Assembly (NCBI RefSeq): GCF_900637855.1
Contig: NZ_LR134440.1
Coordinates: forward strand, 1,736,001-1,800,000
Length of the DNA: 64,000 nt
DNA from: Neisseria animaloris
GTDB taxonomy: Bacteria > Pseudomonadota > Gammaproteobacteria > Burkholderiales > Neisseriaceae
Reading direction: 5' to 3'
Shown: piece after piece, positions 48,619-60,232 of the stretch
Position numbering within the stretch: position 1 is the stretch's first letter
Layout: every line of letters starts with the position of its first letter
Program-made: the position numbers and the translations under genes
The notes under the pieces: model-generated
Databases searched by the model: none
Told to the model about the DNA's origin: nothing
Seen by the model: the letters and a program-made list of their open reading frames with translations, nothing else

Positions 48619-50163
<1,545 letters not shown>

Positions 50164-50784: not shown

Positions 50785-50798
50785 CTTCAAATGATAGA

Positions 50799-50804
<6 letters not shown>
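50785..50804 (+). other. 5' arm of 23S processing stem
   Basis: These 20 bases are perfectly complementary to 53675-53694 behind the gene; together they form the RNase III stem that brackets 23S. Confidence 0.85.
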
Positions 50805-53682
<2,878 letters not shown>

Positions 53683-53833
53683 TATCATTTGAAGGACTTT
53701 TGCACCGTAGTGGGTGTTGAGGCTTCGAAAATAAAGCTTATATCAGTCTTGAAGACGATACCCATCACCGTTGATTGAAGAATAAAGAGAAGGGATGCAT
53801 TTCCCTGACGGCTTTCCCGATTTGTACAGTTTA

Positions 53834-53949
53834 CGTCTGGCGGCCATAGCGAGTTGGTCCCACGCCTTCCCATCCCGAACAGGACCGTGAAACGACTCAG
53901 CGCCGATGATAGTGTGGATACCCATGTGAAAGTAGGTCACTGCCAGACA
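53834..53949 (+). rRNA. 5S ribosomal RNA
   Basis: The terminal stem GTCTGGCGGCC/CTGCCAGAC closes the gene, and CCATCCCGAACAGG is the conserved loop. About 115 bases. It lies about 150 bp after 23S. Confidence 0.93.
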
Positions 53950-54197: not shown

Positions 54198-54491
54198 ATG
54201 AAACGGTATGTATTGGCTCTGGTGGGTCTGCTGGTATCGGCGTGGTCGTTGGCGGCGGTGAACATCAATACGGCGACGGCGGAAGAATTGAAGGCACTGC
54301 CGGGAATCGGGCCGTCGAAGGCGGCGGCGATAGTGGAATACCGGACGCAGAACGGCAAGTTCAAGAGTGTGGACGAGTTGAAGAATGTAAAGGGAATCGG
54401 TGAGGGGATATTGTCGAAGCTGAAAGTGGAGGCGGTGGTATCCGGTCATGGATCGGCGAAAGGGAAGGCGCAGCCGGTGCTGAAGAAGTAA
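54198..54491 (+). CDS. comE: ComE/ComEA-type competence DNA-binding protein
   Basis: ComE binds incoming DNA in the periplasm during transformation. I start at ATG 54198 (97 residues), with GGGAAA upstream. A signal peptide (KRYVLALVGLLVSAWSLAA) precedes the helix-hairpin-helix pair VNINTATAEELKALPGIG and VDELKNVKGIGEGILSKL. In pathogenic Neisseria, as I recall, comE copies lie downstream of each rRNA operon, matching this site. The tail is basic and short. Confidence 0.95.
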   Translation: MKRYVLALVGLLVSAWSLAAVNINTATAEELKALPGIGPSKAAAIVEYRTQNGKFKSVDELKNVKGIGEGILSKLKVEAVVSGHGSAKGKAQPVLKK

Positions 54492-55071
54492 GGAAGCCTG
54501 GAAGGATGTTGGGGCTGTGGGGGTGACTCCGCAGCCTTTGGCGTTTGTGGGAGAGGCCGATGTGGCAGGAAAGAGGGTGATAATGGAGGTTGGGAGGGAT
54601 AATGTCGTGGGTGTTGATGAAGTCCTGTCATGAAAGCGGGCTCAACACCCGACCACCGGGCCGTTCGGGGCTTGAGGCAAAACGGCTATAGGAGGTGATA
54701 TTGGTTTTTTATCTGCTTTATATAAGAAACTCATGGATTTATGATATCAAGATTATTAAATTACAAAAGAATAAACTGAAGATTAAAAAAACAATGGTAT
54801 ATAAATAAAATAACTGTTGAAATTACAATATTATTTATAGAGTTATATCGGTATTTAAGATGGAATCGATGAGAAATTATTTTTTGTTCTCGAGAAGTAA
54901 TTTTCATAAAACCATCATAAATTTCTATTAGGCTATTTCTTATATATTGAATATTTTTAATTTATATAAATCAAAAGGATATAAATATAGTTCGAAAAAT
55001 TTTTAGTGTTGAGTAAGAAACACCGTTATTGGTCGTCTACTTAGCATAACATTAATTTTCAGGAAAAAATT
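54492..55071. other. Intergenic region between comE and the RiPP operon
   Basis: About 580 bp without a supported gene. A GC-rich first part includes a 9-base inverted repeat (54609-54617 with 54642-54650, no T run). From about 54700 it is extremely AT-rich. A possible ECF-type promoter lies at 55013-55039. Confidence 0.55.
55013..55039 (+). promoter_or_regulatory. Possible ECF sigma promoter before doxX gene
   Basis: GTAAG (55013-55017) and CGTCTA (55034-55039) are 16 bp apart, the shape of many ECF promoters (AAC-like -35, CGTC -10). It is 33 bp before the first gene of the operon that ends with an ECF sigma gene. CGTCT also occurs in every DUS, so the match is weak evidence. Confidence 0.3.
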
Positions 55072-55533
55072 ATGATTAAAGCCGCTTGTTTAAGCCGTTT
55101 TTCGGATACTTGGGGTAAAGATATTGCTCTTTTAGGATTACGTCTATTCGTAGCTTATGAATTCTGGGAAGCAGGTTTTGAAAAGTGGAATGGTGAAAAC
55201 TGGTTTGCGAGTATCCAAGATTCATTCCCTTTCCCTTTTAATCTGTTTTCTGCAGATTTCAATTGGGTATTAGCAATGGGAACTGAACTAGTCGTACCTA
55301 TTTTGTTGATATTGGGGCTAGCTGGCCGTTGGGGAGCATTAGCACTGATGGGTGTGACCATAGTAGCTTGGGTTGCTGTGCATGGTGAAAATGGTTACAA
55401 CGTATGTAGCAATGGTTACAAAATGGCTTTGATCTACCTAGTGGCTTTGCTGCCGTTAGTTATGCAAGGTATGGGGCGCTTATCATTGGATCATGTAATT
55501 TTCAGACGAGTGGATAAGAAAAATTCCTTATGA
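55072..55533 (+). CDS. DoxX-family membrane protein
   Basis: A 153-residue four-helix inner-membrane protein of the DoxX/SURF4-like family (LLGLRLFVAYEFWEAGFEKW, LAMGTELVVPILLILGLAGR). DoxX genes often accompany MNIO/bufferin-type RiPP clusters, and this one sits 98 bp before the first precursor gene. A single Cys near residue 117 (NVCSNGY) lies between helices. Its role may be redox or membrane coupling of the system; this is inference. AGGAAAAA precedes the ATG. Confidence 0.85.
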   Translation: MIKAACLSRFSDTWGKDIALLGLRLFVAYEFWEAGFEKWNGENWFASIQDSFPFPFNLFSADFNWVLAMGTELVVPILLILGLAGRWGALALMGVTIVAWVAVHGENGYNVCSNGYKMALIYLVALLPLVMQGMGRLSLDHVIFRRVDKKNSL

Positions 55534-55631
55534 CCTAATAATGAAATAGTTCATTAAAAAATTTTATCCAATCATATTTTTTAAATTTCAAATTTTTAAT
55601 CTAATTAAAATTTATTCAGGAGCATTAAAAC

Positions 55632-55964
55632 ATGAAAACAACTTCTTCTTTGATTGCATTAGCTGGTTTTTTGGCATTAGCTGGTTGTCAGGGGCAGTCA
55701 AATGGTTCAGCAGAATCAACACCTGCCGCTAGTGTTTCAGCACCTAAAGCTGAAGAAGGTAAATGCGGCGAAGGTAAGTGTGGAGCCTCACATGCTGGCG
55801 AAAAAGCTGGTGAGGGTAAATGCGGCGAAGGTAAGTGTGGAGCCTCACATGCTGGCGAAAAAGCTGGTGAGGGTAAATGCGGCGAAGGTAAGTGTGGAGC
55901 CTCACACGCTGGCGAAAAAGCTGGCGAAGGTAAATGCGGTGAGGGCAAGTGCGGTAGCCATTGA
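55632..55964 (+). CDS. Lipoprotein RiPP precursor with eight EGKCG motifs (HvfA/bufferin-like)
   Basis: This 110-residue protein is a precursor of the EGKCG class that MNIO enzymes modify at Cys. It has a lipoprotein signal (LALAGC, Cys19), a short Ser/Ala linker, and from residue 42 four 19-residue units, each with two EGKCG motifs joined by ASHAGEKAG; the last unit ends in SH. The Cys pairs are at 45/50, 64/69, 83/88 and 102/107. HvfA-type products in Haemophilus carry modified Cys and bind copper. Lipid anchoring would hold this one on a membrane. A 57-bp DNA repeat underlies the units. GGAGC precedes the ATG. Confidence 0.88.
   Translation: MKTTSSLIALAGFLALAGCQGQSNGSAESTPAASVSAPKAEEGKCGEGKCGASHAGEKAGEGKCGEGKCGASHAGEKAGEGKCGEGKCGASHAGEKAGEGKCGEGKCGSH
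55755..55961 (+). repeat. 57-bp tandem repeat in precursor gene
   Basis: Three nearly identical 57-bp units and a partial fourth encode the EGKCG blocks, with starts at residues 42, 61, 80 and 99. The few differences are synonymous, so the array is recent and could vary in copy number by slippage or recombination. Confidence 0.85.
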
Positions 55965-56076
55965 TTTTTTAGTTCGGGCCGTTTGAATAGGCAAGTTTTT
56001 CAGATTTAAACGACCTGATTTGACAAGTGAGCTGTGATATAAATTCTTTTTCTCTCAATAAAACTAAGGAGTATCT

Positions 56077-56439
56077 ATGAAAAAATCTTCATCTTTAATT
56101 GCATTGGCCGGTGCATTGGCCTTGTTGGGTAGTCAAGCTGCATTTGCTGAAAGCAAACATGCTTCTTCTAACATCGTGAAAACTGCTGCTAAAAAGGCAC
56201 ACGAAGGTGCGTGTGGCGAAGGCAAATGCGGTGCTCACGGTAAGAAGAAATCTGCTAAAGCCGGTGAAGGTAAATGCGGCGAAGGTAAGTGTGGCGAAGG
56301 TAAATGCGGTGCACATGGTAAGAAATCATCTAAAGCTGGCGAAGGCAAATGCGGTGAAGGCAAATGCGGAGCACACGGTAAGAAGAAATCTACTAAAGCC
56401 GGTGAAGGTAAATGCGGCGAAGGTAAATGCGGCGGTTAA
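56077..56439 (+). CDS. Periplasmic RiPP precursor with nine EGxCG motifs (HvfA/bufferin-like)
   Basis: A 120-residue second precursor. Its signal peptide (MKKSSSLIALAGALALLGSQ ... AAFA) is a near copy of the first precursor's, but the lipobox Cys19 is Ser19 here, so it should be cut by signal peptidase I after AAFA and be free in the periplasm. The mature part has one EGACG and eight EGKCG, grouped in clusters of 2, 3, 2 and 2, joined by AHGKKKSAKAG-type linkers rich in Lys and His. CTAAGGAG precedes the ATG. It is 112 bp behind the first precursor and 172 bp before the MNIO gene. Confidence 0.88.
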   Translation: MKKSSSLIALAGALALLGSQAAFAESKHASSNIVKTAAKKAHEGACGEGKCGAHGKKKSAKAGEGKCGEGKCGEGKCGAHGKKSSKAGEGKCGEGKCGAHGKKKSTKAGEGKCGEGKCGG

Positions 56440-56489
56440 ACCGCTAAACTGAAGCAGTAAACAAATCGACACCTTTTAAATATCTTGGA

Positions 56490-56518
56490 AAGGCCGTCTG
56501 AACCTTTCGGACGGTCTT
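56490..56518 (+). terminator. DUS hairpin between precursor and MNIO genes
   Basis: AAGGCCGTCTGAA faces TTCGGACGGTCTT, a partly degenerate pair. It may attenuate transcription so that the precursors are made in excess over the modifying enzymes. Confidence 0.5.
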
Positions 56519-56611
56519 CCGCTATTAAACGGGTATTTCTCTATCAATGTGTTTAGACATGCTACAGTAAGCATTTTGATACGGATATATCTATTTTCTA
56601 AGGAGCACAAA

Positions 56612-57463
56612 ATGAAAACCTTACACGGAGCAGGTTTAGGTTATAAACGTAGTATGGCCGATGACTTTCTGAATCTGAATCTTGAAACCAGTGCGATTCA
56701 ATTTATTGAAATCGCCCCTGAAAATTGGTTAAGAATGGGGGGAGCTGCGCGTAAAAAATTTGATGCAGTTGCTGAGCGTTTTCCTATTGCTTGTCACGGT
56801 CTATCTTTATCTTTAGGTGGGCAAGATCCATTGCAGATTGATTTTTTAAGACAGGTTAAAGCGTTTCTACAACAATATGATATTGAATTCTTTTCTGAAC
56901 ATCTGAGTTATTGCAGCCATCACGGACATGTTTATGATCTACTGCCGCTGCCGTTTACTGAAGAGTCAGTTCACCACACTGCTGCTCGTATTCGTTTAGT
57001 GCAAGATATTCTTGAGCAGCGCATTGCAATAGAGAATACATCTTATTACGCTCACAGCCCGATTGCGGAGATGGATGAAGTTGATTTTTTGAATGCTGTT
57101 GTACGTGAGGCAGATTGTAACATTCATCTTGATGTGAATAATGTTTATGTGAATGCTGTTAACCACGGTATTGTGCAGCCAAACGATTACATCAATCGCA
57201 CTGATTTAAATCGAGTGTGCTATATGCATATGGCAGGGCATGATGAAGAAAGTGAAAACCTATTGATAGATACACACGGGCAACCTGTTTGTGCTGATGT
57301 TTGGGACTTGTTCGCCTATACTTGTCATAAGTTACCACATAATGTGCCTACATTACTAGAGCGAGATAGTAATTTCCCGCCGTTTGCAGAGCTTGAAGCT
57401 GAAGTCTCCCGTATTGCTGCAATTCAGCAACAAGCAGAGGAGGCTCGTCATGCAGCAGCGTAG
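56612..57463 (+). CDS. MNIO-family (DUF692) multinuclear iron oxidase, HvfB/BufB-like
   Basis: MNIO enzymes oxidise Cys of precursor peptides using a cluster of iron ions. I start at ATG 56612 ([19 protein letters not shown], 283 residues) because TAAGGAGC lies upstream. The TIM-barrel metal motifs are visible: [59 protein letters not shown] and [11 protein letters not shown]. It follows the two precursors and overlaps the partner gene by 14 bases. Confidence 0.93.
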
Positions 57464-58187
57464 TGTTTTAACAACACCTATAAGTAGTGCGGATTTTCAG
57501 TCTGTTTTAGCCGATCATGTGCGTGATCCTTCATTGCCTGCACCGGAAGGTATCGCTTCTGAACGTCTTGCCGTGTATACCCGTTTAGTGCGGAATAATT
57601 TGCGTAGTTTTTTGGATTTGTGTTTCAGTGACAGCAGTGAATTTGCAGATGCGGCCCTCTGGCAAGAACTGCAAAACCGATTTCTGATTGAGGCGCGTCC
57701 TGAGTCGCCATTTTTTAATGATATTCCTACACAATTTCTTGAATATGCACGTACTAGAGAAGGTTTGCAACGCTTACCTGATAATGTGTTGGAAATGATG
57801 GATTTCGAAACAGCTTTGCTTCATGCTGAAACTATGGTTCAACCTGCTTCAGACGGCCGATGGGAAGATAACACTGTATTATCATGGGCTCCAGCTGCTC
57901 AAATCAGGCACTACAATTATAATTTTGTTGACAGTCATTTGGAAAGTATCGAAGAGGAGCCGAGTATAGTATTAACTTGGCGCAACCTTGATAATGAAGT
58001 GTATTATCGTTCAGTAGAAGATGCAGATTTGTTTTTATTGGAACATTTCAGAAAGCAAAGTGATACGTTTATCAATGTTTTAAATAATTTGAAAGAAATG
58101 TTGGATGGACAAGACATTGAGGCATGGTTAAGAGAAAATATAGACGGTTGGGTTGAAGCGGGCGTATTACTGCCTACCCATATGTAA
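57450..58187 (+). CDS. DUF2063-family partner protein, HvfC/BufC-like
   Basis: DUF2063 proteins bind the precursor and work with the MNIO enzyme. The 245-residue product starts at ATG 57450, preceded by GGAGG inside the MNIO gene. The N-terminal helical domain ([36 protein letters not shown]) is typical. It has DUS-like TTCAGACGGCC at about 57849. The coupled start implies equal amounts with the enzyme. Confidence 0.9.
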
Positions 58188-58285
58188 ATATAGAGAAATA
58201 CCATATTGTGGAGACGAGAAAAAAGTCGTCATGAAGTAGTAAAAGCTTTACAATACGCTACTCGATTAAAAACTCAAATCCCAAA

Positions 58286-58861
58286 ATGGAAAATTTCAAG
58301 AAGCTACTCACTTCGATACAACCCGATATTTTGCGTTTTGCCCGTATCCAGCTGCGTGATGATCATCTTGCCGAAGATATTGTGCAAGAGACATTAGCTG
58401 CTGCTATTGATAAGTATAGCCAGTTTCGCGGCGATGCGGGTTTGAAAACGTGGGTTATGACCATCCTTAAAAACAAAATTACTGATTATTTCCGTAGTAA
58501 GAAAAATATTGTCAGCATTGAAGGGCTGCAAGAAGAAAATGCAGCTATTGATGATGCATACAATGAATGTTTTGATGAAACCGGTCATTGGTTTGCATCT
58601 GCCAGCCCGCAACAATGGCGGGAGGCTCCTGAAGAATTTACCCGACAGCAGGATTTCTTCCGAACGTTGGAAAACTGTATGCAAGGACTGCCTGAAGATA
58701 CTGCGCAAATTTTTTATTTGCGTGAAATCATGGGATTGGAAATAACAGAAATTTGTAGCCGTTTTGACATCAGTAAAGATAACTGCTACGTTATTTTACA
58801 TCGAGCCCGAAATGGTTTAAGAAATTGTTTGCAGCATCGTTGGTTTGATCTGAACGAATAA
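58286..58861 (+). CDS. ECF RNA polymerase sigma factor
   Basis: A 191-residue ECF sigma factor. Region 2 is ILRFARIQLRDDHLAEDIVQ with KTWVMTILKNKITDYFR, and region 4 is LPEDTAQIFYLREIMGLEI with a helix-turn-helix around FDISKDNCYVILHRARNGL. It lies 98 bp after the HvfC-like gene and 49 bp before a zinc-finger anti-sigma gene. In N. meningitidis a sigma-E/anti-sigma pair of this type controls oxidative-stress genes, as I recall. It probably controls this operon; this is inference. Confidence 0.92.
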   Translation: MENFKKLLTSIQPDILRFARIQLRDDHLAEDIVQETLAAAIDKYSQFRGDAGLKTWVMTILKNKITDYFRSKKNIVSIEGLQEENAAIDDAYNECFDETGHWFASASPQQWREAPEEFTRQQDFFRTLENCMQGLPEDTAQIFYLREIMGLEITEICSRFDISKDNCYVILHRARNGLRNCLQHRWFDLNE

Positions 58862-58910
58862 CAATTGGTTTAATTTGAACCGATAACAATTATTAAGGGA
58901 GAAATATACT

Positions 58911-59096
58911 ATGTTGAATTGCAAGCAAGCTTGTGTTTTGCTTTCAGAAGAACAGGATCGAAAACTGACTCTGAGTGAACGTAGCCTGGTCTTGCTGCAT
59001 TTGGCTTTTTGTCCTCATTGCCGCCGTTATAAAAAGCAATTGACATTTATACGTAAGAATATTTCTGATTGGCAGAACGGTATCAGTAAAAGATAA
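58911..59096 (+). CDS. Small zinc-binding anti-sigma factor (ZAS/zf-HC2 type)
   Basis: A 61-residue cytoplasmic protein with the anti-sigma zinc motif H30-x3-C34-x2-C37 (HLAFCPHC) and two more Cys near the start (CKQAC). It has no membrane helix, so it is a soluble, redox- or metal-sensing type, as for RsrA-like ZAS proteins. GGGAG precedes the ATG. It directly follows the ECF sigma gene. A DUS hairpin terminates the set. Confidence 0.85.
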   Translation: MLNCKQACVLLSEEQDRKLTLSERSLVLLHLAFCPHCRRYKKQLTFIRKNISDWQNGISKR

Positions 59097-59118
59097 TCCT
59101 TGTCGGTTCGATATTATG

Positions 59119-59174
59119 AAAAGGCCGTCTGAAAAGGTTTTGACTTTAGTTAAAGCTTTTTCAGGCGGCCTTTT
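59119..59174 (+). terminator. DUS-based terminator after the anti-sigma gene
   Basis: AAAAGGCCGTCTGAAAAG pairs with GCTTTTTCAGGCGGCCTTTT over most of its length, closing the operon. Arms are GC-rich with a T run. Confidence 0.65.
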
Positions 59175-59374
59175 ATTGTGTTTCTATTTTTCAATATGTT
59201 CTACTTTCTTTTTTCAAACGGCCTTGTACAATATCACACAGAAGCGGGTCATACCTTGAAACCCAAGTATTCGAGGACATTGCTAAGTTGTATTACCTGA
59301 TTTGCCCGCTATATTTGCCGGTGGAAATAGAAGCAGGAAAAACGGTTTTGTCCTTCTAAAATTTTTGAACCTGT

Positions 59375-60232
59375 ATGGAAAAACAGAAAAACGATTCCCG
59401 TCGAGTCCGCCGTGTCAAAAGTCATCGCCCTCCGTTTTGGCAGGCTGATAAGCCGTATCTTCACGAGCATCATATCAGTGATGTGCGCTTTCGTGTGCTT
59501 GGCTATGTAATGGCTTTTTTGGCGGGGGCCATTAATGCTGGCGGTTTTTTTGCAGTGGCGCGTTACACTTCGCATGTTACGGGTGAGATGTCGTATGCGG
59601 CAGATATGGCTTATTTAGGGGAGTGGAAGGCCGTGAGTATGGCCATGTTAGGTGTTGTGTCGTTTATCTTGGGGGCGGCTCATTCCAGTTGGGTGATTTT
59701 ATGGACTAAGCGTCAGCGTTTTCGAGGTAGTTTCGGTTTGTCGATGTGGCTGGAAGCGGTGTATCTGTTGCTGTTTGGTTTGATAGGGGTGGCGGCTTTG
59801 AAATGGGGAGGAAGTGAAATGCCCTCGGTTGCCATGTTACTGCTGTGTTTCATCATGGGCATGCACAATACGGTAATGACGATTCTTTCTGGAGGGGCGA
59901 TACGTTCTACCCATATGACCGGTACGGCCACTGATTTGGGTATTGAAATCTCAAAGATGTTGTATTACCGCCGCAGTGATAATCCGAAGTTACCACATGT
60001 GCACGTGAACAAGCCTAAAGCCAAGTTGTTTGCCGGATTGATGATTGCTTTTCTGCTAGGCGGAGTTGTTGGTGCATGGGGTTATCATACGGTGGGCCAT
60101 CACTTTACTTTGCCTGTTGCTGCCGTATTGTTTGTTTTGGGTTTCGGTTCCGTGGGCTATGATGTACGGCTGAGGATTAAATTTATACTGGTACGTCGTT
60201 TCAATCTGCGTAGACAGAGAACAAAGCAATAA
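59375..60232 (+). CDS. DUF1275 (YoaK-like) membrane protein
   Basis: A 285-residue protein with about six membrane helices and a basic N-terminal tail. DUF1275 hallmarks are LAGAINAGGFFAVARYTSHVTGE and GMHNTVMTILSGGAIRSTHMTGTATDLG. The function of the family is not known. It has its own upstream gap of about 200 bp past the DUS terminator and no close partner. Confidence 0.88.
   Translation: MEKQKNDSRRVRRVKSHRPPFWQADKPYLHEHHISDVRFRVLGYVMAFLAGAINAGGFFAVARYTSHVTGEMSYAADMAYLGEWKAVSMAMLGVVSFILGAAHSSWVILWTKRQRFRGSFGLSMWLEAVYLLLFGLIGVAALKWGGSEMPSVAMLLLCFIMGMHNTVMTILSGGAIRSTHMTGTATDLGIEISKMLYYRRSDNPKLPHVHVNKPKAKLFAGLMIAFLLGGVVGAWGYHTVGHHFTLPVAAVLFVLGFGSVGYDVRLRIKFILVRRFNLRRQRTKQ

Follow-up and report, generated by a model that had tools for sequence, protein, structure and literature searches.

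The closest described systems to the locus studied here, i.e., the gene cluster at positions 55072-59096 of a 64,000-nucleotide stretch of the Neisseria animaloris genome (the window), are the sigma-E operons of N. meningitidis (NMB2140-NMB2145) and N. gonorrhoeae (NGO1948-NGO1943). Hopman et al. (2010, PMC2893595) described NMB2140-2145 as one autoregulated sigma-E operon with NMB2145 as the anti-sigma factor and msrA/msrB as a target, and the functions of NMB2140-2143 were still unassigned at that time. The operon and its regulation were confirmed by RNA-seq by Huis in 't Veld et al. (2011, PMC3240639). Gonophorin, the product of N. gonorrhoeae ngoABC, was assigned 5-thiooxazoles and binds 1-2 Cu (2026 captophorin paper PMC13097082; preprint PMC12668002). 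Chen et al. (2025, PMC12636315) found that some oxazolins have lipoprotein signals; NedA of N. dentiae, produced with NedBC in E. coli, was triacylated and its mass was reduced by 12 Da, the shift expected from three motifs. In Haemophilus influenzae, HvfBC prefers full-length HvfA, signal peptide included, as its substrate (PMC13419390). The bufferin clusters, BufABC, include tandem precursor genes, and lipoprotein signals occur in ~16% of Buf2 (PMC12452194). Sigma autoregulation and anti-sigma function (PMC2893595, PMC3240639), the 5-thiooxazole chemistry and copper binding of the gonococcal product (PMC13097082), and lipidation with modification of a lipoprotein-type, i.e., type 1, precursor (PMC12636315) are each already known in relatives.

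The operon of the window

By its sequence, the window locus is the Neisseria sigma-E operon for copper-binding modified peptides known from related Neisseria. We regard it as very probable that this is a sigma-E operon in which one HvfBC pair makes two copper-binding ribosomally synthesized and post-translationally modified peptides (RiPPs) of the captophorin class (oxazolin/gonophorin). Gene order, promoter consensus, the extracytoplasmic function (ECF) sigma factor and the zinc-binding anti-sigma (ZAS) factor with Cys4/His30/Cys34/Cys37 are shared with the meningococcal and gonococcal operons (PMC2893595, PMC3240639). Those operons have six genes, whereas the window has seven, with two precursors. 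One soluble-type precursor is present at L085, a locus carrying two published NMB2145 primer strings. Gonophorin shares with the window, in the same genus, the EGKCG precursor, the multinuclear non-heme iron oxidative enzyme (MNIO) and the partner with DUF2063 and a RiPP recognition element (RRE), but one precursor is described for it (PMC13097082), and the two of the window are known here from their genes.

Seven open reading frames (ORFs) on the + strand follow each other as hvfX, hvfA1, hvfA2, hvfB, hvfC, sigma and anti-sigma. The remaining ORFs listed within 55072-59096 mostly overlap these seven in other frames or on the opposite strand. The genes were named by NCBIfam curated models with cut-offs, plus a Pfam scan. 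The two precursors, hvfA1 (55632..55964, +, 110 aa; NF050188, 107 bits vs cut-off 95) and hvfA2 (56077..56439, +, 120 aa; NF050137, 80 bits vs 19.5), were predicted as lipoprotein-type and soluble EGKCG precursors, respectively. The MNIO (DUF692) enzyme HvfB (56612..57463, +, 283 aa) matched NF003818 at 387 bits vs 360 and PF05114 at 336 bits; its start was taken as ATG 56612, and the listed ORF opens at GTG 56549. The hvfC start overlaps the hvfB end by 14 nt, and hvfC (57450..58187, +, 245 aa) encodes the DUF2063 and RRE partner (NF050145, 168 bits vs 142; PF09836, PF22106). In a PDB sequence search, HvfB was similar to the solved DUF692 protein 3bww (E 9.4e-104) and HvfC to 3dee (E 9.5e-34), which is the N. 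gonorrhoeae protein NGO1945 (PMC12452194). The flanking genes are hvfX (55072..55533, +), a DoxX-like membrane protein of 153 aa (NF050144, 139 bits vs cut-off 80; PF07681), the sigma-E type ECF sigma factor (58286..58861, +, 191 aa; TIGR02943, 208 bits vs 162) and the MseR type ZAS anti-sigma factor (58911..59096, +, 61 aa; NF052368, 74.6 bits vs 50; PF13490). Pfam domains of the operon were DoxX, MbnB_TglH_ChrH, DUF2063 with NGO1945_C, sigma-70 regions 2 and 4, and zf-HC2. An intrinsic terminator at 59123..59170 (+; 20-pair stem, T-tail, fold z -8.77) is predicted to close the operon.

The hvfA1 product has a lipobox, LAGC-Q, and 8 EGKCG motifs, and its gene contains a 57-bp repeat unit in 3.7 copies. 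The hvfA2 product has a signal peptide without a lipobox, a leading EGACG, and then 8 EGKCG motifs. Lipobox and signal peptide calls were made by pattern and by eye. The lipobox in an MNIO precursor, by which RiPP-lipoproteins are defined, was found in hvfA1 by pattern only. The repeat-domain model NF050137 placed both precursors above its cut-off, and the full-length model NF050188 placed hvfA1 alone above. In the whole window genome (2,338,721 bases, one contig), HvfB was the single PF05114 match, and all 6 repeat-model matches lay inside hvfA1 or hvfA2; the genome-wide model search found no second MNIO or additional EGKCG precursor elsewhere. Therefore, one enzyme pair should serve both precursors.

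An earlier note, made from the sequence alone, had described seven genes in one direction in this order and an HvfABC-type cluster. Both descriptions agree with the ORFs and family matches, and the profile comparison placed HvfX, HvfA, HvfB and HvfC over their NCBIfam cut-offs. Its Cys-modified copper-binding product is borne out by the orthologue in print (PMC13097082), and for the window species it would hold by analogy. The label bufferin-like was not supported. The window shares with BufABC the MNIO, DUF2063 partner, DoxX, signal-peptide precursor and copper (PMC12452194), but its precursors are EGKCG repeats, and bufferin membership of HvfB was rejected by the BufB model, i.e., 273.5 bits vs cut-off 310. 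For the Buf1 (DUF2282) and Buf2 types, no Pfam family was found in hvfA1 or hvfA2 at E up to 0.1, with no Buf2 model tested by name.

The operon lies 3' of an rRNA operon (16S 48620-50160, 23S 50798-53683, 5S 53836-53948). Directly downstream of this rRNA operon, positions 54198-54491 encode a short secreted protein that resembles ComEA by eye.

The hairpin after the precursors

Among 46 Neisseria genomes, MNIO was found in 34, in one copy each, and 34 loci, i.e., 33 fetched and the window, were examined. Many of these loci are close relatives, and the counts below are not independent.

A hairpin was predicted by folding between the last precursor and hvfB of the window (56487..56520, +), with one DNA uptake sequence inside and without a T-tract. 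The region 56470-56560 folded at -27.4 kcal/mol (z -4.58), and 0/200 shuffles were as good. In a survey of the loci, the strongest 46-base fold of each spacer was compared with 20 dinucleotide shuffles. All 20 were beaten in 31/34 loci by the spacer that separates the last precursor from hvfB (mean -21.6 vs -10.4 kcal/mol), and in 9/9 loci with tandem precursors by the A1-A2 spacer. At two other junctions, all shuffles were beaten by 4/34 spacers between hvfX and the precursor and by 3 of the 27 hvfC-sigma spacers that were near and long enough.

The main alternative is that the hairpin is a DNA-uptake-sequence repeat or an mRNA end by chance, with no role in gene dosage. Uptake sequences lie inside the stem in the window and several relatives. 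The window stem, lacking the T-tract, is absent from the terminator-scan list, and the fold of the entire window A1-A2 spacer is within the range of its shuffles (z -0.14). Fold induction in the meningococcal data was also much alike on the two sides of the junction between precursor and hvfB, i.e., 12.0 and 13.1 (PMC3240639). However, a strong stem recurs at the same place in nearly all loci and rarely at the two other junctions, and it is formed by several clearly different, unrelated sequences, some of which lack the uptake sequence and have T-rich tails; at L085 the stem is followed by a T-run. Moreover, RNA-seq of an anti-sigma mutant of N. meningitidis showed the greatest absolute differences in transcript level for the first two genes (PMC3240639). 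When the mutant reads were divided by the gene lengths of L085 (309 nt, and 831 nt for hvfB from its 276 aa), ~196 reads per nt were obtained for the precursor vs ~76 for hvfB. These densities fit partial termination or differential stability and prove neither. Because fold induction was alike, any hairpin effect would set a fixed ratio and would not act as a regulated switch. A chance origin thus weighed is somewhat unlikely in our judgement.

L086 (G012) is an exception in the survey: its strong hairpin stands between hvfX and the single precursor, and the one before hvfB is weak. This misplaced hairpin may have been left behind by a first precursor that has since been lost. No description of a post-precursor hairpin was found in the parts of the openly licensed literature searched, and we present it as new here.

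Conservation of the tandem pair in Neisseria

Two precursors stand ahead of a single HvfBC in 9/34 loci (L060-L067 and the window). The nearest relative of the window species is Neisseria sp. MVDL19-042950 (G027, L001), with HvfB 96% identical. The same arrangement was found in N. dentiae (L064/G011) and at L066, where a soluble second precursor lies beside the lipoprotein one. The 64-aa N. dentiae precursor P0121, with three motifs, is identical to the first precursor of L066 and fits the published description of NedA. As in type 1 of the window, NedA/NedBC combines a lipoprotein EGKCG precursor with MNIO and partner, but no mention of the second precursor was found in the available text of PMC12636315.

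On the HvfB tree (40 rows), the tandem loci were clustered but did not form one clean clade; 3 changes were needed, and 0/500 shuffles were as low. One of the 3 changes is explained by L004, in which the region upstream of hvfB is cut off and which was scored as lacking the pair. Another is explained by L076 and L086, one single-precursor lineage inside the tandem group. The simplest reading is one gain and one loss, and it is no demonstration because tree support around L076/L086 is modest.

It could be argued that the second precursor is a redundant duplicate, kept for dosage, with no division of labour and with anchoring that differs by drift. The number of EGKCG-type motifs varies from 3 to 10 per precursor among tandem species, the L076/L086 lineage is consistent with loss at its modest support, and two single-precursor species (L071, L073) have a lipobox-like cysteine. 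The constancy of the two types argues against redundancy. In the alignments, in which G027 and G029 were represented by their copies L001 and L003, LAGCQ was invariant in the first precursors (9/9 type 1). The nine type 2 sequences lack the lipobox and have a conserved V..KKA block. The first motif was EG[A/T]CG in 9/9 type 2 vs 0/9 type 1 precursors, and the lipoprotein type came first and the soluble type second in 9/9 loci. L067 was counted among the nine, with a first precursor carrying GEANCG instead of EGKCG. A merely duplicated gene is therefore an unlikely explanation. Both types also share an invariant signal peptide core, L7, A9, L10 and A11 (L-x-ALA), which fits the preference of HvfBC for HvfA with its signal peptide (PMC13419390).

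Two further observations concern the precursor genes. In L067 (G029, from ~3589; L003:4120-4464) the lipoprotein precursor has six GEANCG and no EGKCG, and the soluble partner retains EGKCG. In L083 (G022) a single precursor is seemingly split across two reading frames in the repeat region.

In 18 loci whose titles do not name Neisseria (L006-L023), a small sample, a second repeat precursor was found in 0/18; 16 showed one, and L010 and L023 none. In wider protein searches, covering the best 120 of 1436 and the best 120 of 1998 matches, 8/192 distinct proteins among the matches listed were lipoprotein-like by a crude lipobox pattern. These counts suggest that lipoprotein-type precursors are rare outside Neisseria. 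The conserved lipid/soluble pairing is new here, as no description was found in the parts of the openly licensed literature searched.

Predicted sigma-E control and the proposed mechanism

A sigma-E promoter is predicted at 55013..55039 (+), with a GTAAG -35, 16 nt and a CGTCTA -10. It is a pattern match to the published Neisseria consensus GTMAGBWTT / 12-13 nt / CGTCTAAH (PMC2893595), i.e., a sequence match and not a mapped start. The strict form GTMAG-N16/17-CGTCTA was found upstream of hvfX in 29/34 loci; ATAAG replaces GTMAG in four others, and CGTCCA replaces CGTCTA in one. A sigma-70 promoter inside the operon was rejected, with 11 promoter-like sites in 54500-59400 vs 12.8 +/- 3.0 in shuffles.

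A match to the TIGR02943-type sigma factor is present in each of the 34 Neisseria genomes with MNIO and in 2/12 without it, i.e., 36/46. The sigma gene is downstream of hvfC in 32/34 stretches, in L079 after ~970 nt. In L063 (G007) and L078 (G006), the sigma and anti-sigma genes are not at the hvf cluster, yet hvfX retains its sigma-E-type promoter. In H. influenzae, HvfABC-HvfX, with the same four biosynthetic families, is likewise controlled by a related ECF sigma factor, but there rpoE2 is near msrAB, apart from the doxX cluster, and one precursor with a Sec signal is present (PMC13419390, PMC7907618). The window anti-sigma factor has C4 and H30-x3-C34-x2-C37, and HxxxCxxC with Cys4 was present in 32/32 orthologues read, the window included. 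When the same positions were mutated in NMB2145, Cys4 and Cys37 were important and Cys34 was essential (PMC2893595). The PDB sequence search with the anti-sigma factor gave chance-level matches alone.

Beyond msrAB, a published target, a wider sigma-E regulon with dsbD and other genes was predicted as a candidate, and no description of it was found in the literature searched. A loose-spacing promoter pattern was rejected as proof of a regulon, with 10 matches vs 16 for the reversed control, and the calls rest on exact spacing and recurrence in a relative. The exact-spacing pattern gave 68 matches vs 38 for the reversed control in the 46 genomes, and 12 vs 1 in the window genome and G027. In the window genome, sites were found before yceI (227 nt from the start), a thioredoxin-family gene, dsbD and a fabG-like gene. 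These four and the hvfX site recur in G027 (5/5), with 11 core bases identical in 5/5 pairs and 59/80 spacer bases identical. As each site of a pair was selected by the pattern, identical cores are expected, and the informative part is the recurrence. Before msrAB of the window genome stands GTAAGGATT with the -10 CGTCTTCT, which the strict pattern missed. Outside these two genomes, 14 non-hvf sites were fetched by choice from 56 matches (hvf included). Ten lay before msrAB and 1 before yceI (by BLAST to window genome genes), 2 before sodC and 1 (L116) before a sigma-70-like gene, which may be chance. The sodC sites, L111 and L112 (G010 and G011, tandem group), precede a Cu/Zn superoxide dismutase gene, with the Pfam call for L112 only. 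Sigma-E-type matches also stand before DUF417 and DUF302 genes in G027 (L106, L109); the exact-spacing pattern lists none in the window genome.

The least probable alternative, that protection against oxidants such as hypochlorous acid (HOCl) by cysteine/thiooxazole scavenging is the main role and copper binding secondary, seems quite improbable to us: co-regulation with msrAB in relatives, the candidate promoters before dsbD, the thioredoxin-family gene and yceI in the window genome and G027, and the HOCl induction of the Haemophilus homologues through RpoE2 (PMC7907618) speak for it, but the gonococcal product binds copper, the class is generally Cu-binding (PMC13097082), and candidate promoters also precede the copper enzyme gene sodC in two relatives, so that the oxidant and copper roles overlap.

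In the proposed mechanism, oxidation or another envelope/thiol stress would inactivate the small zinc-type anti-sigma factor. The freed sigma-E would transcribe its own operon from 55013-55039, as well as msrAB and probably other envelope redox genes. HvfC would recognize the precursors, probably by the common signal-peptide core, and HvfB would oxidize the EGKCG cysteines to 5-thiooxazoles prior to export. Precursor 1 would be cut at the lipobox and lipid-anchored to a membrane, precursor 2 would be released as a soluble periplasmic peptide, and the two products would take up surplus copper at different sites of the envelope. Enzyme mRNA would be held below precursor mRNA by the post-precursor hairpin. 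We infer an excess of precursor and delivery to two envelope sites, along with modification of precursor 2, recognition of the shared signal peptide, division of labour between two sites, the role of the hairpin, and the inducer.

Several points, in addition to those given for the hairpin, weigh against this proposal. The evidence for the window species is its sequence, and the chemistry is carried over from relatives. The lipid anchoring of hvfA1 is predicted from a motif, and hvfA2 reaches 85.5 bits with NF050188, below the cut-off of 95. The inducing signal is the weakest link. In N. meningitidis, sigma-E was unresponsive to hydrogen peroxide (H2O2), diamide, singlet oxygen and SDS-EDTA (PMC2893595). 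No test of copper as an inducer was found, and neither PMC2893595 nor PMC7907618 contains the word copper.

The earlier interpretation was largely right and mostly not new. A sigma factor autoregulating the operon and a ZAS factor holding it are both in print for the orthologues (PMC2893595), and they agree with the predicted promoter and with the ZAS residues of the window protein. Two precursors with distinct predicted anchoring were found, one with a lipobox and one without by pattern calls. The pairing called unusual is real, but its unusualness is modest, as a lipidated NedA is in print (PMC12636315) and the pair is in 9/34 loci. Self-contained was too strong a word, with a sigma-E-type promoter also before msrAB and sigma elsewhere in 2/34 loci. 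The redox- or metal-sensing anti-sigma factor does not fit the unresponsive meningococcal sigma-E, yet the gonococcal operon genes respond to H2O2 (PMC2893595) and the homologous Haemophilus genes are RpoE2-dependent and HOCl-responsive (PMC7907618).

A broader reading is offered tentatively, as possible but short of probable. One HvfBC pair would feed a membrane-anchored and a free captophorin, and the pair would be kept by selection throughout the tandem group. The hairpin, whose place but not sequence is conserved in Neisseria, would set the precursor:enzyme ratio. In this group, the regulon would have widened into a set for envelope thiol repair and copper, i.e., msrAB, dsbD, thioredoxin and yceI, with sodC, DUF302 and DUF417 in relatives.

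Three lines of literature meet in this operon: work from 2010-2011 on the sigma-E regulon of the meningococcus, from 2025-2026 on copper-binding thiooxazole peptides, and from 2025 on RiPP-lipoproteins. With its two precursor types, the tandem pair offers a ready-made comparison of what lipid anchoring contributes to a peptide that binds copper, and the hairpin behind the precursors would be a simple and testable means of keeping precursor in excess.

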